DNA from: Owenia fusiformis
Lineage: Eukaryota; Annelida; Polychaeta; Sabellida; Oweniidae
Assembly: GCA_903813345.2 (NCBI GenBank)
Contig: CAIIXF020000004.1
Coordinates: forward strand, 31,495,985-31,559,984
Length of the DNA stretch: 64,000 nt
Direction of reading: 5' to 3'
Shown here: in pieces, positions 40,301 through 58,654 of the stretch
How positions within the stretch are numbered: position 1 is the first letter of the stretch
Layout: each line of letters starts with the position of its first letter
Position numbers and translations under genes: made by a program
Notes under the pieces: generated by a model
Told to the model about the DNA's origin: nothing
What the model saw: only the letters and a program-made list of their open reading frames with translations
The model's database searches: none

Positions 40301-43025
40301 TCGAATCAGCTTCGGAAAATTCGAAAAAAATCCCAAAGGATTGGTAGCAAAAAGAAAATACTGTGTTGGAGGGGTCTACAAAAAAAAATTATGAAATAAA
40401 ATCGGTACAGTTGAAAAGATGACTATTGCATTGTAGCTGTCTATTTTATCATATTTTGGGAAATAATGGTTTCAGAGAAAAAATATTGAATTTAGTTCTA
40501 TATATCGATACCTATCCTTTATATTTGATCGGATCGAATATAGTTTCGAAGCGTCTTAACATATCTGTAGTGTAAGACAGTCAATTATATATGGGATAGT
40601 AGGTATCTTTTGTTGTAACTGTCTTTGTTTATGTTCGGTTTAACTTACTCCGTGGAGTAAAAACCGAAGATGTTGCGAATATTGATGCAATAAATACAAG
40701 ATACATACTAGACAATTGATTTTCGTATATGAATCCACTAACAACACCATCGTGAACACTGTCTCGTGTTAAAGATTGAGCCTCAAACTCCTCTTATTAT
40801 AAAATCTGAAGCCAACGGTAAATAACTTTTTGATCGACCCTTGTAATGAAGGGGGTTGAATTCTATGCATTAATTTATATGTGTGAGAAAAAATGGGCAG
40901 ACAAAATAAAATGATAAAATATTGTTTAATGCTGATTTACAGTATGTCTATTGGGTGTCCATGCAATGCTCCTGATGTGAACAATGCCGTTAAAGCTGCG
41001 GTAGATGAAGGAATAGTTGGTGTAGTTTCTGCTGGAAACGATAATGTAGACGCTTGCAGCAACTCACCCGCTAAAGAACCATCAGCGTAAGTTTTTTTAT
41101 AATCTGTTTTATTTCCTTATATCATAGTTTTCAATTCTAGTTAATAATAATTGCGACCAATGGCTAAGATGTTAGCATTTTGATAAGGTGTTGTGTTTCA
41201 GAAATAGGAGGCCATCTTGAGGATTTAAGTAGAATAGTCTGAAAAAATTGTAACTAGTTTAAAAATCAAAATATTCTAATCAGCGTAAGAAAAGAGAAGA
41301 ACTTTTCTATGGAACATTTGGATCCACAACTGCGAGCGCAATTTCACACTTTTCTTTCTTGTATAATGTTACCATACAAAGTTATTCAGGATATGAATAT
41401 ATATATTATGTTCTAGATGCCATTCTAAGTATTAAGATTTTCAAATTGTATCAACGAATTTCTTATTTATAAAATCCTTAGAATTAAATCTGGCCATAGC
41501 ATTCTGGTCTCTTCCGTGTAGCCAAATATTGTATAGTTGTGATCTGTGGTGGTGTAAACATCGTCATATGCAATATATGCTGCCGTTTAACAAACTATGA
41601 CTTTGTGCATTTAGTTTAACTGTTGCTTCATCCACCGATTTGGACAGTAGGTCGCATTTCTCGAACTATGGAACTTGCGTCGACATCTACGCTCCAGTAA
41701 GTGTTGGTTTCAACAATTTATCCCATACTTATTTAAAATAAATTTAGTTCAAAATTCACATACCATAAGTGTTCTTAGATATAAAACCACTCGTTCTTTT
41801 CAATAATGCTTGTTTTCCAGGGCTCAAACATCTACAGTGCATCGTATACTAGTGATAGCGCTTACGAAACCAAAAGTGGTACATCAATGGCCGCTCCACA
41901 TGTAGTAAGTATTTGCCCTTTCAGCTCACATATAACATTTTACATTTTCATTCAAAAGAATGAAAAACGTAAAATAAAAAGCGTAATATTTATATTATGT
42001 ATATATTCTAAAGCATGGGATCATATTTACACTGTAACTGCATTACAAATGCAATAATTTAAGAATATATTACAAATCCACTGGTCTATAATTATGCATT
42101 TGAGTATTAATCTTTCATGATTATTTAATATTTTGTGATTTCATTATATCACTTCAAACACGGCATACAAAATGGAGAATATGAAATGAGATCCCGAGCA
42201 AAATTCGTTGAAGGTTTCTCACTGTAAAGGTTTTATGCTACCCGTTCTAGTTTCGCTTTCACTATTGCATGTGGAATTGGCGCATGCGGCTATCAATAAA
42301 GTTGAGTTAACTTCCGCCCAAAAGTATCTCGTTCTGTATTTCTTAACTCCCTGTATTTATCAGTGAAATACATGACACTCACAATATGTATATGTTTACA
42401 GGCAGGTGTCGTTGCAAAGTATCTTAGCACAGTTAGTTATAATCCATCCCCTGCTCAAGTCAGGATCTGGCTTATTAACAAGTAAGTCCCTTTCAAAAAT
42501 AAATTCATTCGGTAAATCCAGTAAATAAAGCATACTGTCCGCATACATACAGTTTGAATATAATTAAATAAGAATTGTTTTTCAAAATAAATAGAGTGTT
42601 CCCTCCGAAGCATCGAAGTAAAAATTGCCAGCACAGTATCCAATACACATGAGTGAAATAATTCCCGTTGACACCAACGTGAAATTGCAAATCTCCCGTT
42701 CTGAACAAGAAACTGAAGCTGATCGGGTATCAGAAGTAGAGTAATTATAGCGCTTGTTTTGTATGCGCGCTATATACATTTCTGTATTGATTCATGGACT
42801 TTGCGTTCACGGTTACATAAAGCGTCCATTTACTTGATGTTTTAGTACTAAACAATTTTTTGAAAATGGATTCTAACAGAAAATTAGGCTTGTTTTTCGG
42901 AACTTTTTGTTGGTACTATTTCCTTGCATGTTGTATTCCATCATTTACGTTGTAGCTCCCTTAAAAATCAGATCACCAACAATCCATATGGACCAAATGA
43001 CCTCCTACAAGCTGTCAAATGTTAA
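16263..43025 (+). CDS. Secreted proteinase K-like subtilase (S8), 14 exons, complete
   Basis: Coding sequence joined from 14 exons (1398 nt, 465 residues plus stop). All 13 introns are GT-AG and every phase joins without a break. Order: signal peptide (about 1-19, MKGYILAIVLTVIHVGVLA), I9 inhibitor propeptide (about 35-131, ending LNQILALPIVKSVQESV), furin-like site RVKR (148-151), a basic six-Cys segment (156-185), then the S8 domain from NSWGLDRLDG (191) to Cys465. Catalytic Asp221 (VYIVDSG), His254 (NGHGTHVAG), oxyanion Asn345 (SAGNDN) and Ser410 (SGTSMAAPH) are present. By family knowledge it is an endopeptidase made as a zymogen and secreted. No C-terminal extra domain. Substrate is unknown. 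Odd points are the Cys module and a C-P-C in the substrate-binding strand. Family assignment is firm. Confidence 0.95.
16511..16599 (+). CDS. Protease exon 2: start of I9 propeptide
   Basis: TTACAG acceptor, 89 nt, donor GTCAGT. Encodes SKLRRASDPAKK followed by VYRQYIINLGATVSH, the position where I9 propeptides carry their first beta strand (a 'YIV' type motif). Leaves phase 1. Confidence 0.85.
17070..17241 (+). CDS. Protease exon 3: middle of I9 propeptide
   Basis: Acceptor TCTTCATAG, 172 nt, donor GTAAAT. The phases (1 in, 2 out) fit exons 2 and 4 exactly, completing Val52 and Ser109. Encodes a loop with DNDDNAGVDTS, then GRGGCWIKRRGKF and GFKAYIVSCITE, matching the I9 strand before the 'dLnqi.alp.V' helix. 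Contains two cysteines. Found by phase and family fit, not by ORF length. Confidence 0.82.
17344..17395 (+). repeat. GTAAC/GTAGC pentamer microsatellite
   Basis: About ten units of GTAAC or GTAGC in protease intron 3. Confidence 0.8.
18105..18357 (+). CDS. Protease exon 4: propeptide end, furin site, six-Cys module
   Basis: Acceptor CTTAACAG, 253 nt, donor GTAAGG, phase 0 out. Residues 110-131 finish the I9 domain; 148-151 are RVKR, a furin-type site; 156-185 hold six cysteines with spacing C-x7-C-x-C-x13-CC-x3-C among many Arg and Lys; 191-193 (NSW) begin the mature subtilase strand. The whole Cys module lies inside this one exon. Confidence 0.88.
19619..19953. mobile_element. Foldback MITE in protease intron 4
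   Basis: ATGATTTGTATCCTCCAA at the left and its complement at the right. About 335 bp, no coding. Confidence 0.6.
20270..21460. repeat. Seven-copy 162-bp tandem array within a GGTACGATATTG-bounded element
   Basis: ACTTGTCTACAGGTTTCCAG recurs about every 162 bp from 20342 to 21314. The array is framed by GGTACGATATTG (20285 and about 21446) and starts with a GGGC run. Looks like one dispersed repeat with an expanded middle. In protease intron 4. Confidence 0.8.
21540..21625 (+). CDS. Protease exon 5: N-terminal S8 strand and catalytic Asp
   Basis: Acceptor ACACAG, 86 nt, donor GTAAGT. Encodes GLDRLDGNLNNQLLAKG and then DVDVYIVD, the catalytic Asp221 motif. WGLDRLD spans the exon 4/5 junction, matching the usual 'WGL.R' start of mature proteinase K relatives. 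Confidence 0.93.
21693..21907. mobile_element. Short hAT-like MITE with G-rich left arm
   Basis: Ends CACTGGCGGATCCGG and, inverted, CAGGGGCGGATCTGG; ATACT on both sides. A run of about 20 G lies near the left end. In protease intron 5. Confidence 0.5.
22366..22440 (+). repeat. Dispersed 75-bp repeat, copy 1
   Basis: GCGCTTGTTTTGTATGCGCG followed by TGTATTGATTCATGGACTTT. Same sequence at 42745-42816. In protease intron 5. Confidence 0.7.
22701..22746 (+). CDS. Protease exon 6
   Basis: Acceptor TTTTTCAG, 46 nt, donor GTAAGT. Encodes GVRYTHEEFCGRVET, the 'G(V/I)...H.EF.GR' segment after the catalytic Asp. Too short for ORF detection; identified from splice sites, phase and motif. Confidence 0.92.
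23040..23106 (+). CDS. Protease exon 7: catalytic His
   Basis: Acceptor ATTTTAG, 67 nt, donor GTATGT. Encodes GKNFVNIGSSADDDNGHGTH then VA: the NGHGTHVAG active-site motif with His254 (Gly260 completed by the next exon). Confidence 0.94.
23195..24870 (+). repeat. 43-bp satellite TTATGTCATCGCACTTTTGA in protease intron 7
   Basis: Units of about 43 bp at 23200-23445, 23505-23710 and 24395-24860. Blocks 23250-23475 and 23510-23765 are near-identical segmental copies. They are separated by a palindromic segment rich in GATATC (23740-24370) with GTGATATCA-like words. Confidence 0.8.
24980..25770. repeat. Dispersed repeat with CCGT microsatellite
   Basis: Starts TTATCCCAACGAACGAAG with the palindrome AACGAACGAAGTTCGTT, then (CCGT)n/(CAGT)n at 25030-25105. 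Diverged sub-repeats follow (AAAATTCAAAATGGC at 25475 and 25611), and it ends GTTCGTTGGGATTTGCTACT. Non-autonomous mobile repeat by appearance. Confidence 0.6.
25990..26080 (+). CDS. Protease exon 8
   Basis: Acceptor GTTTAG, 91 nt, donor GTAAGT. Encodes TAAGQKTGVARNANIIPVKV and MNAQGSGTSA, the 'GVA..a.i.pVKVl...GsGt.S' substrate-binding strand of proteinase K-like enzymes. Confidence 0.94.
26352..26638 (+). mobile_element. 287-bp MITE with 5-bp TTAAT duplication
   Basis: Ends CACACTAC and GTAGTGTG, flanked by TTAAT on both sides. Contains the matched blocks GAAGTTGCAAATGGAGG and CCGCTCCATTTGCAA as an inner inverted pair. In protease intron 8. Confidence 0.7.
27600..27668 (+). CDS. Protease exon 9
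   Basis: Acceptor TTTTTACAG, 69 nt, donor GTAATT. Encodes GIVSGLGWIVQQYRSRGRKA and VIN, the helix before the 'vinMSlGg' strand. Followed by the very long intron 9. Confidence 0.92.
27928..28388. mobile_element. PIF/Harbinger-like MITE, 461 bp, GC-rich
   Basis: Ends CACCCCAGTCACATTT and its complement, flanked by TTA on both sides (3-bp duplication). The inside is GC-rich with repeated ACGCTCGCCGTAG/ACGCTCGCCGCAG blocks, which explains the overlapping open frames on both strands. In protease intron 9. Confidence 0.78.
28389..30456. other. Part of protease intron 9 without recognised content
   Basis: AT-rich; small open frames (for example 29833-30021) show no motif. Confidence 0.4.
30457..31240 (+). 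repeat. 24-bp satellite with an open frame (GTTIPLIS repeats)
   Basis: Unit TACTACAATTCCCCTCATCT plus four bases, nearly perfect at 30457-30640, then decaying to TATCATGGGTATTACAATTCC forms up to about 31240 and in traces to 31330 and 32700-33000. Because 24 is a multiple of 3, both strands stay open. In protease intron 9; not thought to be translated. Confidence 0.9.
31427..32300 (-). pseudogene. Possible decayed coding sequence of unknown mobile element
   Basis: Minus-strand stretches that read like protein but are broken by stops and frame changes: CLKCRNTTALVSKFDKTERQ near 32200, KWFTDNKYFEIIVNIGIPKP near 31910, and NGNQLFLGQVYTMVQHFVPL near 31590. No family recognised. It lies antisense in protease intron 9, so it is not part of that gene. 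Confidence 0.3.
33110..33969. mobile_element. Second TTAA-flanked foldback element
   Basis: Arms start GGCGACGCTATATTA and end with the complement; TTAA on both sides (33106-33109, 33970-33973). Arms match over about 185 bp once a nested element in the right arm (33591-33827) is removed. Confidence 0.82.
33591..33827. mobile_element. TA-flanked Tc1/mariner-like MITE nested in the foldback
   Basis: Ends CAGTTCGGGACATAAATAAA and, inverted, CAGTTGGGGACAAAAATAAA; TA on both sides. The left arm of the host foldback keeps the uninterrupted site (CACATAAACGC), which proves insertion at TA. 237 bp. Confidence 0.88.
34730..35171 (-). pseudogene. LINE reverse-transcriptase C-terminal fragment, part 2
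   Basis: Encodes a Lys-rich region with VWNTLFNCTKDNKLKIIQWK, then CKYCDNEIDDDMHYLMYFVK and a following C, W. This C-x2-C...H...C pattern after a 'W+ii...i.p' stretch is typical of the zinc-knuckle end of non-LTR retrotransposon ORF2. Continues part 1 across a MITE. In protease intron 9, antisense. Confidence 0.7.
35181..35603. mobile_element. MITE with 9-bp duplication inserted in the LINE fragment
   Basis: GCCAAGACT occurs on both sides (35172-35180, 35604-35612). Ends CGAACTCCTATGCAGTG and, inverted, CGAACTCCCGTGCAGTG; an inner inverted pair CACTGCGGCGGGCAG follows. A 9-bp duplication suggests a Mutator-like (MULE) origin. Removing it joins the two LINE frames. Confidence 0.85.
35613..35890 (-). 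pseudogene. LINE fragment, part 1
   Basis: Reads PLFFKHWIENDVIYINDIVK near 35870 and later LRFVNRELCKSDSKYIRSEL near 35650, with one in-frame stop near 35757. Typical of the region just before the zinc knuckle of LINE ORF2. Truncated upstream. Confidence 0.65.
36285..36560. repeat. TACCGTAAAA-type simple repeats
   Basis: Many irregular copies of TACCGTAAAA and CTACCGTAA within 280 bp, in protease intron 9. Confidence 0.6.
37335..38089. mobile_element. TTAA-flanked foldback MITE, copy 2
   Basis: Same family as 5807-6563: ends GGTGCCATGGAAGTTAACAG and complement, TTAA on both sides, 755 bp. Lies in protease intron 9. Confidence 0.85.
38094..40942. other. End of protease intron 9
   Basis: AT-rich. 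A 40-bp direct repeat (ATACCTATCCTCGAAAAAAA) occurs at 39670 and 39868. Nothing else supported. Confidence 0.4.
40943..41086 (+). CDS. Protease exon 10: oxyanion Asn
   Basis: Acceptor GATTTACAG, 144 nt, donor GTAAGT. Encodes MSIGCPCNAPDVNNAVKAAV, then SAGNDNVDAC and SPAKEPSA. Asn345 is the oxyanion-hole residue. The usual glycines after MS(L/I)G are replaced by Cys318-Pro-Cys320. Confidence 0.94.
41615..41696 (+). CDS. Protease exon 11
   Basis: Acceptor GCATTTAG, 82 nt, donor GTAAGT. Encodes LTVASSTDLDSRSHFSNYGT then CVDIYAP, the conserved 'tVgas...d.rs.FSNyG..vdi.aPG' segment. Confidence 0.94.
41821..41904 (+). CDS. Protease exon 12: catalytic Ser
   Basis: Acceptor TTTTCCAG, 84 nt, donor GTAAGT. 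Encodes GSNIYSASYTSDSAYETK and then SGTSMAAPHV with the catalytic Ser410. Both flanking introns are phase 0. Confidence 0.95.
42402..42481 (+). CDS. Protease exon 13
   Basis: Acceptor GTTTACAG, 80 nt, donor GTAAGT. Encodes AGVVAKYLSTVSYNPSPAQV and RIWLIN, the helices after the catalytic Ser. Confidence 0.93.
42745..42816 (+). repeat. Dispersed 75-bp repeat, copy 2
   Basis: Same as 22366-22440, in protease intron 13. Confidence 0.7.
42956..43025 (+). CDS. Protease exon 14: C-terminus and stop
   Basis: Acceptor CGTTGTAG, 70 nt including TAA. Encodes SLKNQITNNPYGPNDLLQAV and KC, matching the 'G.pN.Ll' C-terminus of proteinase K relatives. Confidence 0.92.
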
Positions 43026-43560: not shown

Positions 43561-44446
43561 CATTCTATATTCTCCCATTCTCCTTCATAATACCACAATT
43601 GACCTTTAAACAACAAACCACAATTTATTTGGTCCATTGGGAACCTTTGTATGCGTTTCCCTTTTGATAAGCCCTATAAAACATCCAAAAACATAAACCT
43701 AATCATTTTCATTGTAGAACTTTTATATTTCATCAATCCCCATTTATATATAGAGATTGTCCTATTTGAAGTTCAGGATATTGGGATTATCCCGAGGCCA
43801 ATATAATATATCTGTCCGAGGTTGAGAATTGCAGCCATTTTTGCAATTTCTTGACTGTGACTGAATTGGATTTTGTGGTTATTGAACTGTGGTATTATGA
43901 CATCACAGTGCTAAATGCCATTATTTGTACTTGATGAACATCATGCTGAATGAGTTCATCAATTTCCCTAACATTTTGATCATTTAAAAGAAAGAAATAT
44001 TAATTAACAAAATAACACTTTGGAGTTTTTCATAGTAAGAAAAATTTGTAACCGCCCCACCCACTCCTACCCCAGTGTTGCTATAGCAACCATTTTAAGA
44101 CTTAATATTTATGTATGATGCTGAAACTTTAGGATATTAATTTCAGCTGAATTGAAGAATACTGAAAAAAGATATAGTGTATAGATATAGTATATAGTGC
44201 ATTACTTCTGGGACAACCCTTGTATTGTAGATAGCAAGGAATATATTGGAAGGTCAACTGTACATGTTGATAGAAATTTTGCCACTCCCTATACTCAATA
44301 TTTCTGATTCTTCCTTTAATAAAGTAACCAAACCAATCAACCTGACAATGGATTTGTTCCATAATTTACACACAAGACGTACACAATACACATGGCATTT
44401 GATGAATGTGACAATTTCATTTCGTTTGGATTCCAAGCTAAATCTC

Positions 44447-44620
44447 AAAAGCATGTTTTTATATTGTGTGCTTCACTTTCGCTTTCAATACTCCATGTGT
44501 GATTTGGCACATGCGCATTAACAAATCGAGTCACGCGTACGCTAAATTGGTAAGTTCTTTATTTCTATGACTCCCTGTCTTACACTAAAATACTTGACAG
44601 TATGTATTTCAGTATGTCAT
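44447..44620 (+). repeat. Diverged copy of protease intron 12 sequence
   Basis: Resembles 42228-42400, the end of protease intron 12: TTTCGCTTTCA...CATGTG.GATTTGGC.CATGCG, then ACTCCCTGT and a final TATGTATTTCAG. No exon 13-like sequence follows. Either a dispersed repeat or the remnant of a local duplication. It overlaps the 3' UTR/poly(A) signal of VWA-A. Confidence 0.5.
44558..44563 (-). terminator. Poly(A) signal AATAAA of VWA-A
   Basis: AATAAA on the minus strand, 86 nt after the VWA-A stop codon. Confidence 0.5.
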
Positions 44621-44648
44621 TTAAATAGTTATTTTTTAGCCAAGATAA

Positions 44649-44791
44649 CTATGTCTGCTTCGATTTCGGTAGTAATTCGAGCGTTCTGTGTACTACGTCA
44701 TCAATACGGCCATCGTTGTATTCCTCTAATGACATAGTAATTATATGTGCACCATCCGGGTCACTAGCGATCATATTCCAGTTCCTTATTG
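44649..44791 (-). CDS. VWA-A exon 7: last exon and stop
   Basis: Acceptor ATATTTCAG, 143 nt ending TAG. Encodes IRNWNMIASDPDGAHIITMS, LEEYNDGRIDDVVHRTLELL and PKSKQT, the 'L..ias.p...hv......l...v' end of a VWA domain. Confidence 0.92.
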
Positions 44792-47700
44792 CTGAAATAT
44801 AAAAAAAAATGAAATTATTTATTTAATTGAATGAATCAACTTCTTATTAATTAACTTTTTTCATCCTAAGAGCATTGGACATTTCATTCCTACTAAATTA
44901 GATTAAAGCATTTCTTTGTGTGGGTCGCAGGAACTTTTGATATTAGCTAGATCTGCGGTTATAAAGGATGGAAAAATTATTGATTTGAAAAACTATGAAA
45001 ATAAATTGAATCGGGGATACACATATTTTCAAAAACTTGTGGATCTAATTCGACCAATCCCTACACGTATATTAGACCGTGACAAAATGTGACAAGTAAA
45101 ATCGAAATAGACAAGTAACATTGAATTTTAAATTACTAAAGCAATATCACTTCGAGGCAAGGTCAAGTTTAAGTCATGTGAAGGTCATCTGTTTACTCAT
45201 TTATGCTTGAATTACATACATATAAATAAGTCAACGTTCGTTAATTCAGGGCACTTAAAAGGTTCCGGATGACATTGAGGCAAGGTCAAGTTTAAGTCAT
45301 GTGAAGGTCATCTGTTTACTTATTTATGCTTGAATTAAATACATATAAATAAGTCAACGTTCGTTAATTCAGGGCACTTAAAAGGTTCCGGATGACATTG
45401 AGGCAAGATCAAGTTTAAGTCATGTGAAGGTCATCTGTTTACTCATTTATGCTTGAATTGAATACACATTAATAAGTCAACGTTCGTAAATTTAGGGCAC
45501 TTAAAGGTCCCGGATGACATTGAGGCAAGGTCAAGTTTAAGTCATGTAAAGTTCATCTGTTAACTCATTTATGCTTGAATTAAATACATATAAATAAGTC
45601 AACGTTCGTTAATTCAGGGCACTTAAAAGGTTCCGGATGACATTGAGGCAAGATCAAGTTTAAGTCATGTGAAGGTCATCTGTTTACTTATTTATGCTTG
45701 AATTAAATACATACAAATACGTTCGTTAATTTAGGGCACTTAAAAGCTAAGGTCCCGGATGACATTGATCGATGTCACTAACCAGCGATCAATCAAACAA
45801 CTCATTCAGATATACCATTTTAAATGATCGAGTGTTTCATACAACACAGCTCTTTAAAATACGTATGGGATCCTAAAAGCTATTTAAATTTATTAATTTT
45901 ATCGTTTTTGAGATAAGGTTTAAAATATTTTAGGCAGTTTCGAGGTTTGCCTATTTCGTGAGTGGTTTCAACACCGAAATGTATCAATCCTGTTATTTGG
46001 TAAGAATGACAGTCTAACATGCCATTGCGTCTTATTGTCACAAATGTAACTGTATTGTCTAGGTTTCTATTAACTTACATGGTTGCCTAATTTCCTATGC
46101 AACAATTGGGTCAAGTCGAAAACAATGAAAACTCGGAAGGTGTTAAGGCAAACGACTTTATTAATCCCTTATGAATCCGACTTCAAATTATTGATGAGTC
46201 GGATGCAATTGTGAGCTAGGTTGGTAGAAGGCCTCAACTCACCTTCCGCTTGCGTAACCGAGAATCCATTCCTTACACCGACGATAAACACCTCTGACAC
46301 CATGTGTAGATTTTCAATCGAAGTCCTGAATTTTCTGTCCATCTGTGTGTGACCTTGGCGACTGTAGATACCATCATCGAACACTATAATGAAAAACGCC
46401 CATTTGTGTAATTGTCATTGAATAACTGTGAACTTGTTGTATTTTGCCAATTTTAGACTTAACGTTTATCTAACAAAATATCATATTCAATGTGGTGACT
46501 ATAGTCAAGAAGGTTTCTAGACAACCCATCCCAAGACAACTCATCCCTAAGACAACTCATCCAAAGACAACTCATCCCTAAGACAACTCATCTTAAGACA
46601 ACTCATCTCTAAGATACCTTCAAAGACAACTCATCCCTAAGACAACTCATATAAAATTGAGTGTATAATCTAATATCCCTTTGTAGTAGTAAAAATGAAA
46701 ATGGGATCTACATGTAAATAATATGGAGGACAAAATCATTTATCAATTATACAAGCAGAATGAGTTGCATTGGGATGAGATGTCTTGGGATAAGATGTCT
46801 CGGGATGAGATGTCTTGGGATAGGATGTCTTGGGATAGGATGTCTCGGGATGAGTTGTCTTGGGATGAGATGTCTTGGGATAGGATGTCTTGGGATAGGA
46901 TGTCTTGTGATGAGATGTCTTGGGATAAGATGTCTTGGGATAGGATGTCTCGGGATGAGTTGTCTTTGGATGAGTAGTCTTAGGGACGAGTTGTCTTGGG
47001 ATAGGATGTCTTGTGATGAGATGTCTTAGGATGAGATGTCTTGGAGATGAGTTGTCTAAGAGATGAGTTGTCCTGTTACTGTTAAGAATATAGTCATGAC
47101 ACACATTGCAAAACATAAATGATATAATCGGATACATTCTGTCAAAGTAATAGCCATTTGGTGAGGAACACTATAGGTTTCCCTGTCGCTCTACTTAGTC
47201 AATTACAAAGAGGCTTAATACGTGTATGTTTCACTCACCAATTACTATATTTCTGTTGTCTCTTCGTCCACCATATATTGAATCTTGGAAATAGTTCTCT
47301 CGGATAAAATCAAACGACTTATGAGGCTTGGCATTATCCTTTGGTGTCAGATCCATATTAAACAGACCGTTTACCAAATCATCAACATTAGTGAAATTAT
47401 TCAACCCAAAATGCATCGTTAAATTGCCAAAGAAACATAATGCTCCGATGATGGTTCCCTTTGGCTCTGTGTTTATCCTGAGCTCTCTGGCAAGCTTCAC
47501 CATAAAGTCTGTTGCAGTGCCGTTCGCTATTTCACCATATTTTATTTTGCCATTTTTGCCTGTACTTTTGCTGATGTTTATGTCAAATACAATATCGTGG
47601 CCATATGCTAAATGTTTTAAAAATGTAAAATCTTAAACATGTTTATGTAACTAGATTTCAAACTATGTTTAGCCATTTTACAAAACCACCAGTGTAATTA

Positions 47701-50700
47701 AATTTCAAACTTAATGGAAAACGAAATTTCAACGGCATGTTTACCCCAAAATTTCATGAAATTAACTGTCAACTTTTATCCTCAAGAACATTAATCAGAA
47801 GCCTCCATTTTGAAGAAACGATCGTTTGCGCCTTTTTAATTTTTACATCGGATGAAAACGAAGACGAGCTGGCTCATTTTGTTCAGGATAAAAGTAAAAA
47901 AAGTTGTGTGGAATTCGTGATATAAGAAAGGAAAAACATAGGACAAACATGCACAAAATGTTGATGACCAACGTCTCATACAGCACCAATATGGCCAATT
48001 AATGGTTGATCAACATATATGCATCTAGTTATCTTTCTAAACATGTTTTTTTCAGATTAAAAAAATCAATACGAATGTTCAATGTGATATTTAGAACTTA
48101 CAAAATGTCCCCCTTTCTTGTCTACCCATTGCCTCTGAAAAATTAACATGTTCCATATTATTATTCACCCATTGCCTCTGAAAAATTAACATGTTCGATA
48201 TTATTATTCACACATTGCCTCTGAAAAATTAACATGTTCGATATCATTATTCACCCATTGCCTCTGAAAAATTCACATGTTCGATATCATTATTCACCCA
48301 TTGCCTCTGAAAAATTCACATGTTCGATATTATTATTCACCCATTTCCTCTGAAAAATTCACATGTTCGATATCATTATTCACCCATTGCCTCTGAAAAA
48401 TTCACATGTTCGATATCATTATTCACCCATTGCCTCTGAAAAATTAGCATGTTTGATATTATTATTCACCCAGTGCCTCTGAAAAATTAACATGTTCGAT
48501 ATTATTATTCACCCAGTGCCTCTGAAAAATTAACATGTTCGATATTATTATTCACACATTGCCTCTGAAAAATTAACATGTTCGATATTATTATTAACCC
48601 ATTGCCTCTGAAAAATTCACATGTTCGATATCATTATTCACCCATTGCCTCTGAAAAATTCACATGTGCGATATCATTATTCACCCATTGCCTCTGAAAA
48701 ATTAGCATGTTTGATATTATTATTCCCGTTTAACGTATAACTTTACATATGATATTTTTATATATAGTTGCAATACTTTAGAATATCACACCTATGGACG
48801 TATAGAGGTGTGCAATGAATGATGACGTAACCAAACGCTTCATAAGTTATTCATACGGGAATGATAAACATGCAATATGCTTGAAAATCGATTGACCAGT
48901 GAGAGATGAATATCAGTAATGCCATCTTTTAAACTCATGAATATATTTTTAGAGACAATAGATGAGATATATGTCATTCTTTATATCAGGCAGTGTCTAT
49001 GGAAACTGTATTTTTGATTTAAAAGGCATAGTTATGACCATTAGTTATGGTATGGTATGACCATTTAGTTACCTTTAAAAAGCGACCTTTGAAAACGAAG
49101 CCTCGCTGTTGATTTGTTAAGAATACCCGTAAAATAAAAGTTAACTGGTATCATTATTAAATAAAAAAGTAGATTGTGTACACTTTTGGAACATACAAAA
49201 TATTAAATGAATTTTGGTGAATGAATTGTGAATTGTGAATGAACTTTTAGATCTTGCACCTGACATACGTACCCTCCTGTGCAATAGCACATGAACTGAA
49301 AGCAGGCAAGTTTTGTATGCAGTCATCATCGCATTCGCCACCATAGGCTACGACTGAATATGGGAATTTAACTTGCTACAATGTAAATACGTATAATATG
49401 AGCTAAATAGGTTTTTAGTGAATAAGGCAATGTTACTAGCTACAATGTAAATACGTATAATATGAGCTAAATAGGTTTTAGTGAATAAGGCAATGTTACT
49501 TGCTACAATGTAAATACGTATAATATGAGCTAAATAGGTTTTTAGTGAATAAGGCAATGTTACTAGCTACAATGTAAATACGTCTAATATGAGCTAAATA
49601 GGTTTTTAGTGAATAAGGCAATGTTACTTGCTACAATGTAAATACGTATAATATGAGCTAAATAGGTTTTGAGTGAATAAGGCAATGTAACTTGCTACAA
49701 TGTAAATACGTTTAATATGAGCTAAAAAGGTTTTGAGTGAATAAGGCAATGTTACTTGCTACAATGTAAATACGTATAATATTAGCTAAATAGATTTTGA
49801 GTGAATAAGGCAATGTTACTTGCTACAATGTAAATACGTATAATATGAGCTAAATAGACTTTGAGTGAATAAGGCAATGTTATTTGCTACAATGTAAATA
49901 CGTATAATATTAGCTGAATAGTTTTTGAGTGAATAAGGCAATGTTACCTGCTACAATGTAAATACGTATCATATGAGCTAAATAGTTTTTGAGTGAATAA
50001 GGCAATGTTACCTGCTACAATGTAAATACGTATAATATGAGCTAAATAGGCTTTGAGTGAATAAGGCAATGTTACTTGCTACAATGTAAATACGTATAAT
50101 ATGAGCTAAATAGACTTTGAGTGAATAAGGCAATGTTTTTTGCTACAATGTAAATACGTATAATATGAGCTAAATAGTTTTTAGTGAATAAGGCAATGTT
50201 ACTTGCTACAATGTAAATACGTATAATATGAGCTAAATAGTTTTTGAGTGAATAAGGCAATGTTACTTGCTACAATGTAAATACGTATAATATGAGCTAA
50301 ATAGACTTTGAGTGAATAAGGCAATGTTATTTGCTACAATGTAAATACGTATAATATGAGCTGAATAGTTTTTGAGTGAATAAGGCAATGTTACCTGCTA
50401 CAATGTAAATACGTATAATATGAGCTAAATAGTTTTTGAGTGAATAAGGCAATGTTACCTGCTACAATGTAAATACGTATAATATGAGCTAAATAGGCTT
50501 TGAGTGAATAAGGCAATGTTACTTGTTACAATGTAAATACGTATAATATGAGCTAAATAGACTTTGAGTGAATAAGGCAATGTTTTTTGCTACAATGTAA
50601 ATACGTATAATATGAGCTAAATAGTTTTTAGTGAATAAGGCAATGTTACTTGCTACAATGTAAATACGTATAATATGAGCTAAATAGTTTTTGAGTGAAT

Positions 50701-51530
50701 AAGGCAATGTTACTTGCTGCAATATAAATACGTATTCACGTATTAGAGCTAGACACTATATATTTAACTCAACCAATTATTGACACAATAATCCGAAATC
50801 TTAAAATTACAACAAACAGGGGGGGGGGGTTCGCCCGAACCCTGCGAACCCCCCCCCCCTCCCCTGGCTAGGGTACTTCTCTATGTCAGAATGTTAAATG
50901 GAGTTTTGATCTCCTATACAACACATACGGAGTTTTAACCATCTACAACTCATTGAGTCCGGGGCATAAATTCATTATCATCTTGACTAAATAGGCGATA
51001 AAACAATTGACATGATTTGAAGAGCACCGCCGAACGGTAATACTAAATCTAAAATGTATGATGTCTATAACTACGATATACATTCATAGTTATTTATGAC
51101 AACTATCTACATTGTAGCAAGTAGCATTTCCTTGCTATTTTTGTCGAATTGACGAGAGGGCTTGAGCGCCAGCACGTTTAGGTGAGGCGATTGGGCGCCG
51201 TAACCATGAGGTTGCGAGTTCGAGACGCGTGTGCTCCTGTTTATTTTATTGATTGTACTTACGTTATCGAAAGGGTCATTAAACTTGCTTGGACATCCAC
51301 AACAATTTTCTTTTGTTGTGTCACAAGGGAAGTTGTTGTTAGCACACATTGCTGAAAATCATATTGAAATAATTTGTATTCGCTATTCCGAAACGTGTTG
51401 TTAGAGGAAAGGGAAACAAACGAAGATACAGTATCAAAAGACTACAAGAACAATTTAAGATATAATACTCACAACTGATAGCCACTACTTGAACATTTAT
51501 GAACATCAGTAGGCTTTGTGACGTCATCAT
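44649..51530 (-). CDS. Secreted Cys-rich VWA-domain protein (VWA-A), 7 exons, complete
   Basis: Exons on the minus strand: 51530-51473, 51351-51263, 49375-49273, 48134-48102, 47607-47239, 46383-46243, 44791-44649; 936 nt, 311 residues. Phases match at all junctions. Signal peptide MMTSQSLLMFINVQVVAIS; five cysteines ending ENCCGCPSKF; a PYSVVAYGGECDDDC segment; a short linker; then a VWA-like fold starting DIVFDINISKS with the central strand VIVFDDGIYS and final HIITMS strand. VWA domains bind partners, often via a metal site; here the MIDAS is DxNxS, not DxSxS, and the usual Thr is not evident. The start at 51530 is preferred over ATG 51554 because a TATA box at 51575-51581 would put transcription start near 51551. 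Partner unknown. Confidence 0.88.
45154..45760. repeat. 123-bp tandem array in VWA-A intron 6
   Basis: Five copies of a 122-123 bp unit starting GAGGCAAGGTCAAGTTTAAG (45154, 45277, 45400, 45522, 45645), highly similar to each other. Confidence 0.9.
46243..46383 (-). CDS. VWA-A exon 6
   Basis: Acceptor TCATTATAG, 141 nt, donor GTGAGT. Completes the VIVFDDGIYSRQG strand (equivalent of 'lITDG') and encodes KFRTSIENLHMVSEVFIVGV, the 'a..l...gv.vf.igvg' strand of VWA domains. Confidence 0.92.
46509..47075. repeat. 15-bp satellite in two opposite arms, VWA-A intron 5
   Basis: AAGACAACTCATCCCT units at 46509-46650 face TTGGGATGAGATGTC units at 46755-47070. The second arm is the reverse complement of the first, so the intron could form a long hairpin. 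The open frames with DEMSW or KTSHP pentapeptides come from the 15-bp period. Confidence 0.88.
47239..47607 (-). CDS. VWA-A exon 5: main VWA part
   Basis: Acceptor CATTTAG, 369 nt, donor GTGAGT. Encodes YGHDIVFDINISKS, MVKLARELRINTEPKGTIIG, ALCFFGNLTMHFGLNNF, NVDDLVNGLFNMDLTPKDN, PHKSFDFIRENYF and RDNRNIVI. Order of strands and helices fits a VWA fold. Confidence 0.92.
48102..48134 (-). CDS. VWA-A exon 4: 33-nt microexon
   Basis: Acceptor AATTTTTCAG, donor GTAAGT, 33 nt, encoding (E)AMGRQERGTF(S). Phases 1/1. VWA-B has a 33-nt exon at the same place, (D)ALDRNAQGTH(S), so it is real despite its size. Its acceptor edge is repeated in the 43-bp array beside it. Confidence 0.85.
48127..48724 (-). 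repeat. 43-bp minisatellite copying the VWA-A exon 4 splice acceptor
   Basis: Fourteen units of 43 bp including the genuine acceptor. On the coding strand each has TTAATTTTTCAG|AGGCAATG: polypyrimidine tract, AG and the first 11 exon nt (AGGCAATGGGT). It then runs GAATAATAATATCGAACATG into the next unit. A few units carry single changes. Confidence 0.93.
49273..49375 (-). CDS. VWA-A exon 3
   Basis: Acceptor TTTACATTGTAG, 103 nt, donor GTACGT. Encodes QVKFPYSVVAYGGECDDDC and a tail with SSCAIAQE. The same segment exists in VWA-B (QLKYPYSVIAYGGDCADEC), which confirms the exon. Its upstream edge is the source of the 64-bp array next to it. Confidence 0.9.
49376..50740 (-). repeat. 64-bp minisatellite copying the VWA-A exon 3 splice acceptor
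   Basis: About 21 copies of a 63-64 bp unit in VWA-A intron 2, directly abutting exon 3. On the coding strand each unit has CGTATTTACATTGTAG|CAAG, the same 16 intron bases and first exon bases as the genuine acceptor. The next exon bases align too (19 of the first 24 exon nt equal), giving QVTLPYSL against QVKFPYSV in the exon. Confidence 0.93.
50815..50870. repeat. G-run/C-run palindrome in VWA-A intron 2
   Basis: A run of ten G, then TTCGCCCGAACCCTGCGAA, then a run of 13 C: a perfect-looking hairpin of about 45 nt. Confidence 0.7.
51140..51240 (+). mobile_element. tRNA-derived SINE fragment, copy 1
   Basis: GAGAGGGCTTGAGCGCC (A-box region) and GGTTGCGAGTTCGAGAC (B box). Matches 56928-57022. 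In VWA-A intron 2, 20 bp from exon 2, antisense to the gene. Confidence 0.65.
51263..51351 (-). CDS. VWA-A exon 2: Cys-rich
   Basis: Acceptor GATTTTCAG, 89 nt, donor GTAAGT, phase 0 out. Encodes MCANNNFPCDTTKENCCGCP then SKFNDPFDN: five cysteines, pattern C-x6-C-x6-CC-x-C. No family recognised. Confidence 0.85.
51473..51530 (-). CDS. VWA-A exon 1: signal peptide
   Basis: ATGATG start, hydrophobic core LLMFINVQVVAIS, donor GTGAGT, phase 1. An in-frame ATG at 51554 would add eight residues (MRFNQYTS) and weaken the signal peptide. Confidence 0.8.
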
Positions 51531-55673: not shown

Positions 55674-58654
55674 CTAAAACAAAATGTGTGTCATTATATA
55701 TACATTGTGTCATCTAGACTCCCTCCATAAGTTTGGCTACCGGAAGTCTCCAAATGAAACTTCCGGTTAAAAACTTATCTAGAGAAAGAATCTAACGAAA
55801 AGAAGCTGGTTTCTATGGTAAGCAGAGGTCAAGGGGTACGGGGCAAAATTAGGTCTTGCGAGAATGTCCCCGATTGACAGCATATGCTATCAAATAAGCA
55901 TATTTAAATATTAACCTCGATGTATTTTTAACTGTTTTTTAACTATTACAATGGTAAAGTTGAAAATGCAATTCTATAGTTATGGATTATAAGAACTTTA
56001 TGATCACTCCTCGTATATGATCCTTTACTTAATGGTGCTAATTTTCAAACGCACATACCCATCAACGAACTCCTTTGAAATCCATTCCTAACACCGACAA
56101 CAAATACTTCTGCGACTTTATGTAACTGTTCAATAGACTTTCGGAACTTTATATCCCGCATTGGGTTACCCTGGCGAGTATAAAACCCATCGTCGAAAAC
56201 TGAAAATAATCATAATATGATACATAGGGTGGCCCTATAAAATTGAGTACAACTTCTAGCTTCATGTGTAAGTTCCCTTAATAATTATTGGGTTAAATGC
56301 TTTTGCCCACTATGATATTCCGACTGATAGATTATTCAATTTTTAAAGAGATTATTCACCAGGAGGTATTTGATATGGGGAATATCACTAGGATAATATC
56401 AATATTTCCCGAGGGACCTCAGTGACAGGGGGAAATATTGACCATGACCAAATATTCACTATGGTCAAGGGTAACATCTTTCTATTGAAAGAGAGATTTT
56501 TTTGAAAAAACTGAAAAGGACCGCTAGTTGTTTGCAGAATGAATCGGGAAGTTTTTAATGTATTTCGCTTGTGTCTTTCATCTAAAAAACATCAATACAC
56601 TTTTTTTGATTGACTTTAAGATTCACCATATATCCAAAAGATATTTCTCATTTTCAAGGATTATCTATTGATTAACACACAGGTATTTTTGTTTTTCAAA
56701 CTTCAGAGGACTGGGAATTATTGATTACGAATGCTTTTGAATAATATAAATGCTGGTTTAAATAGATTTAACCCGCTCTGGGTTCTTAAGGACAGTTGAG
56801 CTGTGTGTGTGTGTGTGTGTGTGTGTGTAGAAAATGTCCGTTGTGCTTCCTCTTGAGTGTTCAAGCGTTAACATCAGCTGCCTCTAGTCAGATAGAATGA
56901 CAAAACAACTTTTTTGGGGTTGTCATGTTGGCCGAGAGGGCTTGAGCGCCTCCACGTTCGAGCTAGGTGATTGGGTGCCGTAACCACGAGGTTGCGAGTT
57001 CGAGACGCGTGTGCTCCTTGTGTTTATTCATTTCATGTATTTCAATAATTTCTCAAATTATGTAAATGGTACCAATTCCTTAATCCCTAGAATTTTCTAT
57101 TTGAGGAATTCCCCGTAGAAATCCAATGGTATAGTTCCAAGCGGGTTTTGTGATAAAAAACTAATAACTGTGACTTGTATCACTGACAAAGGAAGCGTCC
57201 CGCATACTTACCTATTACTACATTCCGATTATCCTTTCGTCTTCCATATATTGTATCGTTGAAATAGTGTTCTCGGATGAAATTGAATGATTTGTGAGGC
57301 TTAGCTTTCTCCCGCAAAGTGAGATTCATTCCATAAAGACCGTTCACCAAATCGTCGACATTAGTGAAGTCCTCCAAATCAAAGTGCATAGATAGGTTGC
57401 CATAGTAACACAAAGCTCCAATCAAAGACCCCTTCGCCTCATCACTTATTCGGAGCGCTCTGGCTAGCCTCACCATATAACGCGTGGCAGTCCCATCTGC
57501 TACCTCACCAACAGTTGAACCAGCCCGTCCTTTAACTTTACTCACGTTGATATCAAATATAATATCACCACCAAAAGCTGCAAGTATGATTAACATGTAA
57601 GCATGTATCTTTTGGACCGCACTATGAGCAAGGAAATAGTATTTTGTTCAGTATTTCATCAATTTCGGAACCTTATTTTGTGCAATGTTACATTAACATA
57701 CATTTCTAGTCACACGTCAAGTAACAAGTCATATCACGTTAATTTTTGCAATTCTAAATATTACTCTCTGAATCTACGGATACCATTAAACGCTTTTATG
57801 GTGTTTACTCATAGGCCGTATTGCAGAATTTGTTTTGCAAAGTGTTATATACATTTTATTTTATTTGGTCATAGGTCCCATGGGCCATCAATCAATGTAC
57901 TATCAAATTAGGCCCATGAGTTGCCATACAAAGAGAACATAAGTTATGACATAGACATCAATTCACTTTCGCAGGCCCGTATTGTAAGTTAATTCTCTAT
58001 TTTTTGATAATGTAGATAGACGAATACCTTAACCTCTTACTTACAATGGGTTCCCTGCGCATTTCTATCAAGCGCATCTGAAAAAGAGCACAGCTTTTCA
58101 TGACGTAATATTAACGCATAATCGCACTGTCATCTAAAATGTTGGCAGCTCCCCCACTGAATCGCGTATAACTGAGCATTTTTATAGGGTACATGTATAA
58201 GCTACACGTATTTCAACAGAATATGTACGTGAACGTGTAAAATTATGATCCACATGTATAACTATTCCCTTTTAATTAGGTTTTCCATAGGAACCTTATT
58301 ACAACTACGAAAAATTGTCGTCGCAGCCTGTAGTTTAGCCTCTCCTCTTAGAAAGGTTAGAAAAATCTCTTTTACCTCTGTTTCAGGGGTTGTGTTAAAA
58401 TCCTTTTAACTGCTGGCCTCCGGCCTTATAGTTGATGCTTACCAGCTTAAACATACGTATGGAGAAGTTAAAGGCGTTTTCATTTATTTGTTACATTTTT
58501 GACATCACCCTGTATGCTATGATGTGGTCTGTTACTTACCATAATAGTCTCTCTCACAGGAGCCAACCTCTGCCGTACTATTGGCTAAATTTATCAAACA
58601 CTCATCTGCACAGTCTCCTCCGTAGGCTATGACTGAATACGGGTACTTGAGTTG
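55531..58654 (-). CDS. Secreted VWA-domain protein paralogue (VWA-B), 3' five exons
   Basis: Exons 58654-58540, 58077-58045, 57577-57212, 56199-56059 and 55673-55531 on the minus strand encode 265 residues and a TAA stop. They match VWA-A exons 3 to 7 in order, phase and nearly in length (115, 33, 366, 141, 143 nt). Key segments: QLKYPYSVIAYGGDCADEC, DIIFDINVSKVKG, VIVFDDGFYTRQG, HIITMSLADYNDG. The putative metal site is again D-x-N-x-S. The first two exons (signal peptide and CCxC segment) were not found between 58655 and 64000; they may be diverged or beyond the window. A tandem duplicate in the same orientation as VWA-A. Confidence 0.85.
56059..56199 (-). CDS. VWA-B exon equivalent to VWA-A exon 6
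   Basis: Acceptor ATTTTCAG, 141 nt, donor GTATGT. Encodes FDDGFYTRQGNPMRDIKFRK and VAEVFVVGVRNGFQ. Confidence 0.92.
56798..56830 (+). repeat. (GT)n microsatellite
   Basis: About 14 GT units in the VWA-B intron. Confidence 0.9.
56928..57022 (+). mobile_element. tRNA-derived SINE fragment, copy 2
   Basis: TGTTGGCCGAGAGGGCTTGA with a good A box (TGGCCGAGAGG) and GGTTGCGAGTTCGAGAC with a B box. Looks like a Leu/Ser-type tRNA head; no 3' tRNA end is present, so not called a tRNA gene. In the VWA-B intron. Confidence 0.65.
57212..57577 (-). CDS. VWA-B main VWA exon
   Basis: Acceptor ACTTGCAG, 366 nt, donor GTAAGT. Encodes FGGDIIFDINVSKVKG, MVRLARALRISDEAKGSLIG, ALCYYGNLSMHFDLEDF and RKDNRNVVI; one codon shorter than in VWA-A. 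Confidence 0.92.
58045..58077 (-). CDS. VWA-B 33-nt microexon
   Basis: Acceptor CTTTTTCAG, 33 nt, donor GTAAGT; (D)ALDRNAQGTH(S). Same size and phases as VWA-A exon 4. Confidence 0.8.
58540..58654 (-). CDS. VWA-B exon equivalent to VWA-A exon 3
   Basis: Acceptor CATTGTAG, 115 nt, donor GTAAGT. Three cysteines are at the same places as in VWA-A (GGDC, DEC, GSC). Confidence 0.87.

Follow-up and report, generated by a model that had tools for sequence, protein, structure and literature searches.

How does a gene come to carry about 20 copies of one of its own 3′ splice sites directly in front of the exon that uses it, and do those copies alter the protein? The question is raised by VWA-A, a minus-strand gene encoding a von Willebrand A (VWA) domain, in a 64,000-nucleotide stretch of contig CAIIXF020000004.1 (positions 31,495,985 to 31,559,984; hereafter, the window; GC content, 34.0%) from the 498-Mb genome of the annelid Owenia fusiformis. 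A tandem array sits between exons 2 and 3 of VWA-A, directly upstream of exon 3 and touching it. Very probably, this array is a minisatellite that grew in place across the exon-3 acceptor, as a by-product rather than as a device for making variable protein.

Tandem Repeats Finder (TRF) called the array at 49355-50735, with a period of 64, 21.6 copies and 94% matches. Ahead of the true acceptor we counted 21 acceptor-like positions, spaced from acceptor to acceptor by 64 bp in 18 units and by 63 bp in the other 3. Units combine an AT-rich stretch with TTGTAG and some 24-33 bp that resemble exon 3; most of them also contain CTCAT or CTAAT, which by eye reads as a branch-point consensus. Exon 3, whose 3′ end was assigned from a gtacgt donor, begins at 49375 on the minus strand with CAAGTTAAATTCCC, translated QVKFPYS. 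The unit consensus agreed with this true junction at all 40 intron bases before the AG and at 19 of the first 24 exon bases. By comparison, the best of 200,000 24-mers drawn at random from the window outside the array reached 16 matches in 24, and shuffling the exon 24-mer 200,000 times never yielded as many as 19. Identity to the true site was found in 16/21 units over the last 20 intron bases, in 8/21 from -20 to +5, and in 2/21 from -40 to +5. The AG was retained in 20 of the 21 units; the unit at 50525 reads AA. Judged from these units, 20 decoy AGs would be present in the pre-mRNA, preceded by sequence nearly equal to that of the true site.

To delimit the repeat, a 24-base unit core was searched for throughout the 498 Mb with up to three mismatches, and the reversed pattern served as a control. 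The core matched 23 places, comprising the 21 units, the true junction and a single inverted copy in the same intron, and the reversed control matched none. At this sensitivity the core was not found outside the exon-3 intron and exon of VWA-A, although stretches of N in the assembly could conceal further ones, and the pattern search of this one assembly gave no second copy of the array locus. A sequence-only reading of the window had taken the repeat for an amplified intron/exon junction rather than a random satellite, to be checked against shuffled sequence and against occurrence elsewhere in the genome. As far as the search could detect, that interpretation withstood both checks. The contact with exon 3 was borne out, with the array extending over 49376-50735, and so was the count of 19 agreeing exon bases in 24. 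Most units, but not all, have the 16 shared intron bases that the reading had assigned to every one of them, and the reading's estimate of about 21 decoy acceptors holds for the number of positions, one of which has lost the AG.

The direction of change was read from VWA-B, a related gene in the window that served as an outgroup. Its exon 3 opens at the same codon as that of VWA-A (QLKYPYSV; tblastn E 1.7e-9). Weaker counterparts were found in VWA-D (TFKLPYAM; tblastn E 0.22) and in a gene on contig C5 (RPKTPISV; E 0.013), with AG and frame assigned by eye. Among these four genes, only VWA-A has an array at exon 3. The unit consensus and the exon differ at five positions; at positions 8, 12 and 22, VWA-B sides with the VWA-A exon, and positions 6 and 15 are ambiguous. 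Since all three informative changes lie on the unit side, this comparison indicates that the exon edge came first and that the units changed afterwards. The reverse course, in which an unrelated satellite landed beside the exon and the exon captured satellite sequence as a new acceptor, would fit the identity of the intron side to the unit consensus. We give it next to no credence, because the core motif was not found elsewhere in the 498 Mb, because the start of exon 3 is common to VWA-B and, more weakly, to two further paralogues, and because the derived states are carried by the units.

The array also records how it expanded. Two successive seven-unit blocks are 99.3% identical, versus 93.3% for the next block; the units therefore spread in blocks, and the pair is probably the latest large growth step. 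Invariant columns numbered 35/64 among all 21 units and 50/64 without the outermost unit. A further VWA-A intron array, with a 123-bp unit, is present as a single copy in L007, a partial duplicate of the 3′ half of VWA-A, in which positions 1-2608 align with 43773-46862 of the window. The two are 85.2% and 88.0% identical at the nucleotide level in two segments, and their proteins are identical in exons 5 and 6 (52/52 and 44/44 aligned residues). The single-copy state of L007 looks like growth of the VWA-A intron array from single-copy DNA, although loss in L007 is possible too; on the former reading, arrays here can grow from single-copy DNA.

We then considered what decoy use would do to the protein. 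When exon 2, which ends in phase 0, was joined to each of the 21 decoys, 6 were in frame with exon 3 and all 6 ran into a stop. As none of the 21 gave an open in-frame extension, decoy use would truncate the protein, not diversify it. Similarly, 6 of 17 decoys in an array at exon 2 of VWA-D were in frame and none was open. Pseudoexons shorter than 400 nt and ending at GTAA, GTGA or GTAT included, besides sixteen of 3 nt, only one that was open and in frame (60 nt). For acceptor extensions, these counts contradict the suggestion of the sequence-only reading that the use of a decoy could bring in variable peptide. In its favor, units begin with short open runs, and the frame does read QV..PYS there, but not throughout the unit, which is mostly 64 bp and thus not a multiple of three. 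We regard variable peptide as almost certainly the wrong explanation.

The sixteen 3-nt cases arise from a GTAACA located three bases after the decoy AG in 16/21 units and preceded by CAA (10), CAG (4) or CTA (2); exon 3 has GTTAAA. By its motifs, such a trinucleotide with GTAACA could act as a 3-nt microexon or as a recursive site. In recursive (ratchet) splicing, a spliced decoy would rebuild the donor GTAACA and splice onward, so that the ladder erased itself until exon 3 was reached. There is a parallel in human UBC, in which splicing employs AGGT dual-specific sites of tandem repeats (PMC10809524). However, the stronger CAG/GTAACA, the only form with a dual AG/GTAA, occurs in just 4/21 units, the VWA-D units have GTCAGA, a poor donor, and the two base changes involved may be one early event. 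The ratchet seems to us a very long shot. If true, it would yield at most in-frame 3-nt insertions, mostly Gln, and would offer genes a route to tolerate long decoy arrays.

We favor the explanation that a minisatellite expanded where it stands, its founding stretch lying by chance across the VWA-A exon-3 acceptor. About 64 bp spanning the intron/exon boundary would first have been duplicated in tandem, and slippage or unequal exchange would then have added single units and multi-unit blocks again and again. Turnover would have homogenized the array up to the true AG, and selection on the protein would have kept the exon itself unchanged. The true acceptor is most likely picked for its adjoining exon body and donor (exon definition), and any transcript spliced at a decoy would contain a stop and be removed. 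We infer the duplication mechanism, the choice of acceptor and the absence of a function.

Arrays of this kind have been described as ‘mirage’ minisatellites in the amphioxus genes Adh3, BflGb6 and BflGb9, the latter two encoding globins, where tandem repeats cross the intron/exon boundary in acceptor and donor forms and RT-PCR (reverse transcription–polymerase chain reaction) suggested regular splicing (PMC3087553). As in amphioxus, the VWA-A units span the boundary, most but not all keep the splice signal (AG in 20/21), and the cluster has been homogenized. They derive from the host junction, as indicated by their locus specificity and by the informative differences, all three of which fall to the units, and they have evolved in concert inside the array and less so at its edge, as seen in the 99.3% block pair and the rise in invariant columns once the outermost unit is omitted. 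Copies elsewhere, expected of a dispersed satellite or transposable element, amounted to 0 matches to the 24-base core outside the exon-3 intron and exon, with up to three mismatches allowed. By these features, the VWA-A array is a minisatellite of the mirage kind, already known from amphioxus. In our literature search, which most subscription literature lay outside, mirage minisatellites at exon/intron boundaries were found for amphioxus only. The GC content of the window compares with about 41% in amphioxus, and searches for the GFP, COX1 and mollusc hemocyanin families returned no hit, although for GFP and hemocyanin the control genomes gave none either; GC content and the lack of a GFP hit would fit a genome other than that of amphioxus.

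The VWA-A array is not alone in this genome (Table 1). VWA-D has an acceptor array whose unit is unrelated to that of VWA-A; 17 of its 19 decoys have the AG, and the pair closest to the true site has AT instead. The VWA-D pattern matched 17 places in the genome, 16 units and the true junction, all at the VWA-D locus. Two other members of the family, VWA-B and VWA-E, have arrays at the stop codon of the last exon; in VWA-B, GRIGEIVHRTLQLLPKTKQT can still be read from the copies lying downstream, in the 3′ region. A donor array is found at a kinase exon, L025, in which GTAAGT occurs 12 times and CTAAGT 11 times; 27 of the 31 genome matches to its pattern lie at this locus, against one match for the control. 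The kinase is classed as NDR-type, because its nearest solved structure is STK38; LATS is a possible assignment. Taken together, these loci indicate that junction arrays arose separately more than once in this genome, and repeatedly in the VWA family. A tandem array of coding exons was also observed at C1:37825576-37860487, where 13 VWA-like exon matches, 11 of them equal in score, are mostly 1885 bp apart. On the plus strand of the window, 40887-42057 contains exons of a subtilisin-like protease, whose GTSMAAPHV motif was recognized by eye.

Table 1. Positions of the exons and repeats discussed (window coordinates unless a locus is named)
Feature	Position	Strand	Basis or remark
VWA-A exon 2	51263..51351	-	phase-0 end before gtaagt; tblastn to VWA-B exon 2; 5′ end by eye
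VWA-A exon 3 (QVKFPYSVVAYGGECDDDC...)	49273..49375	-	true acceptor 49376/49375; same start codon position in VWA-B, weaker in VWA-D and contig C5 gene
VWA-A exons 4-6 (VWA domain)	44649..47600	-	Pfam PF00092, E 1e-10, on hand-joined exon translations; tblastn
VWA-A exon-3 acceptor array, 21 units (63-64 bp)	49376..50735	-	TRF; unit listing; genome-wide pattern search
Two successive 7-unit blocks, 447 bp each, 99.3% identical	49823..50716	-	block comparison
Single inverted copy of unit core	51108..51133	+	24/26 bases match; just outside dispersed repeat starting near 51141
VWA-A intron array, 123 bp x 4.9	45154..45746	-	TRF; single-copy in partial paralogue L007
VWA-B exon 3 start	58586..58654	-	same start codon as VWA-A exon 3, without array; outgroup
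VWA-B last-exon array, 125 bp x 4.8, carrying exon end and stop codon	54999..55600	-	TRF; sequence
VWA-D exon-2 acceptor array, 19 copies of 56 bp	L006 5328-6432	-	sequence reading; unit unrelated to VWA-A unit
VWA-E array, 67 bp x 8.9, from stop codon of last exon	L005 4362-4952	+	sequence
Kinase-exon donor array, ~35 copies of 23 bp, beginning at donor GTAAGT	L025 1979-2784	gene strand	

To ask how often such contacts would be expected, we counted arrays with a period of at least 15 and at least 2.5 copies. For comparison we took the 30 kinase exon loci that scored best among 144 listed matches and, likewise, the top 25 of 92 for the myosin head; some of these loci share one gene. Arrays covered 5.5% of these 55 loci and 12.1% of the window; coverage was 8.4% in L005, 20.5% in L006, 12.9% in L007 and 1.3% in L008. 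Among the 110 kinase and myosin exon edges, 71 were usable (30 acceptor, 41 donor), and the rest were dropped as their open frame overran; open-frame limits stand in here for exon edges, and several kinase loci look single-exon. Arrays covered 0 of 900 positions within 30 bp of an acceptor edge and 30 of 1230 (2.4%) within 30 bp of a donor edge, compared with about 6-9% beyond 100 bp. An enrichment of arrays at exon edges was not seen for the 71 edges, near which arrays were rarer, not commoner. At one of the 55 loci, L023, an array does run into the exon's acceptor region, on an edge that had been dropped; L036 contains a coding repeat, and L045 and L052 have arrays near exons that do not include the junction. 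Because arrays make up about 5-12% of most of the DNA sampled and are not overrepresented at exon edges, it is enough that repeat growth overlapped a junction by chance, and a special attraction to junctions is unnecessary.

The single inverted copy of the unit core lies in the intron between exons 2 and 3. Its predicted duplexes with the 22 sites ranged from -28.9 to -36.7 kcal/mol, whereas shuffled sequences gave a mean of -10.3 and a best value of -25.1; by this prediction, the inverted copy could pair with the units as RNA. An RNA fold of 591 nt including the inverted copy gave a z of -6.06, to which a G/C palindrome contributes. This palindrome, at about 50819-50860 in the same intron, has long runs of G and C and forms a strong hairpin in the fold. 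The adjacent dispersed repeat resembles, by eye, a tRNA-SINE (short interspersed nuclear element); Rfam gave no matches in the window. This repeat was rejected as the source of the inverted copy, because its listed matches begin beyond that copy. With 40 of 495 candidates scored, the list contained 39 matches besides the window itself; one begins at query position 100 (window 51139) and the other 38 at 101 or beyond.

Several observations weigh against a by-product. The AG is kept in 20/21 units though exon-like positions 2-6 vary, which could be read as maintenance, although homogenization explains it as well. In VWA-D, the pair of decoys closest to the true acceptor has lost the AG, a hint of some cost or of selection. 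Arrays touch 4 of 24 exons in the VWA family, two at the acceptor and two at the stop codon; contact at 2/24 acceptors is more frequent than in the kinase and myosin set (0/900 positions within 30 bp of 30 acceptor edges), though array coverage is also higher around the VWA exons (12.1% of the window, 20.5% of L006). The inverted copy has no part in the account, and the evidence, including all that bears on regulation, is DNA sequence from a single assembly. If decoys were occasionally used, copy number could set the share of productive mRNA through stops and nonsense-mediated decay. The retained AGs and the two inactivated VWA-D decoys agree with such a regulator, as does the lack of any open in-frame product, since splicing at a decoy would then always reduce output. 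An intronic minisatellite of C. elegans has been linked to genes with multiple alternative splicing (PMC4039745). However, the amphioxus mirage genes appear by RT-PCR to be spliced regularly (PMC3087553), and exon 3 of VWA-B, VWA-D and the contig C5 gene does without an array. Consequently, we consider a regulatory role unlikely.

In-place growth of a minisatellite across a junction also places VWA-A among known systems. The VWA-A and VWA-D acceptor arrays and the L025 donor array parallel the acceptor and donor mirages of amphioxus, and the VWA-A unit length is within the 10-72 bp given for Adh3; by contrast, VWA-A is a VWA-domain gene with 21 units, versus 3 and 6 in BflGb6, and several separate arrays occur here in one gene family (PMC3087553). 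Human segmental-duplication genes have tandem repeats at exon-intron boundaries, with novel introns or alternative transcripts reported (PMC2812944); minisatellite expansion is common to both, but at VWA-A it lengthened an old intron and left the exon unchanged. UBC shares tandem splice signals, with AG/GT in some units, but its units are coding monomers, whereas those of VWA-A are intronic and contain stops, with AG/GTAA in 4/21 only (PMC10809524). The Rogers model of intron gain by tandem duplication of AG/GT (cited in PMC3087553) likewise involves duplication across a splice signal; it yields a new intron, and none was seen at the VWA-A array.

The VWA-A array offers 20 decoy acceptors in a series made by nature, and over the final 20 intron bases 16/21 units equal the true site; it would test how the spliceosome picks the last among many near-equal sites. 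The finding has a bearing on intron lengthening and on proposed intron gain, and it suggests that mirage arrays occur outside amphioxus as well and that a single gene family can acquire them repeatedly.

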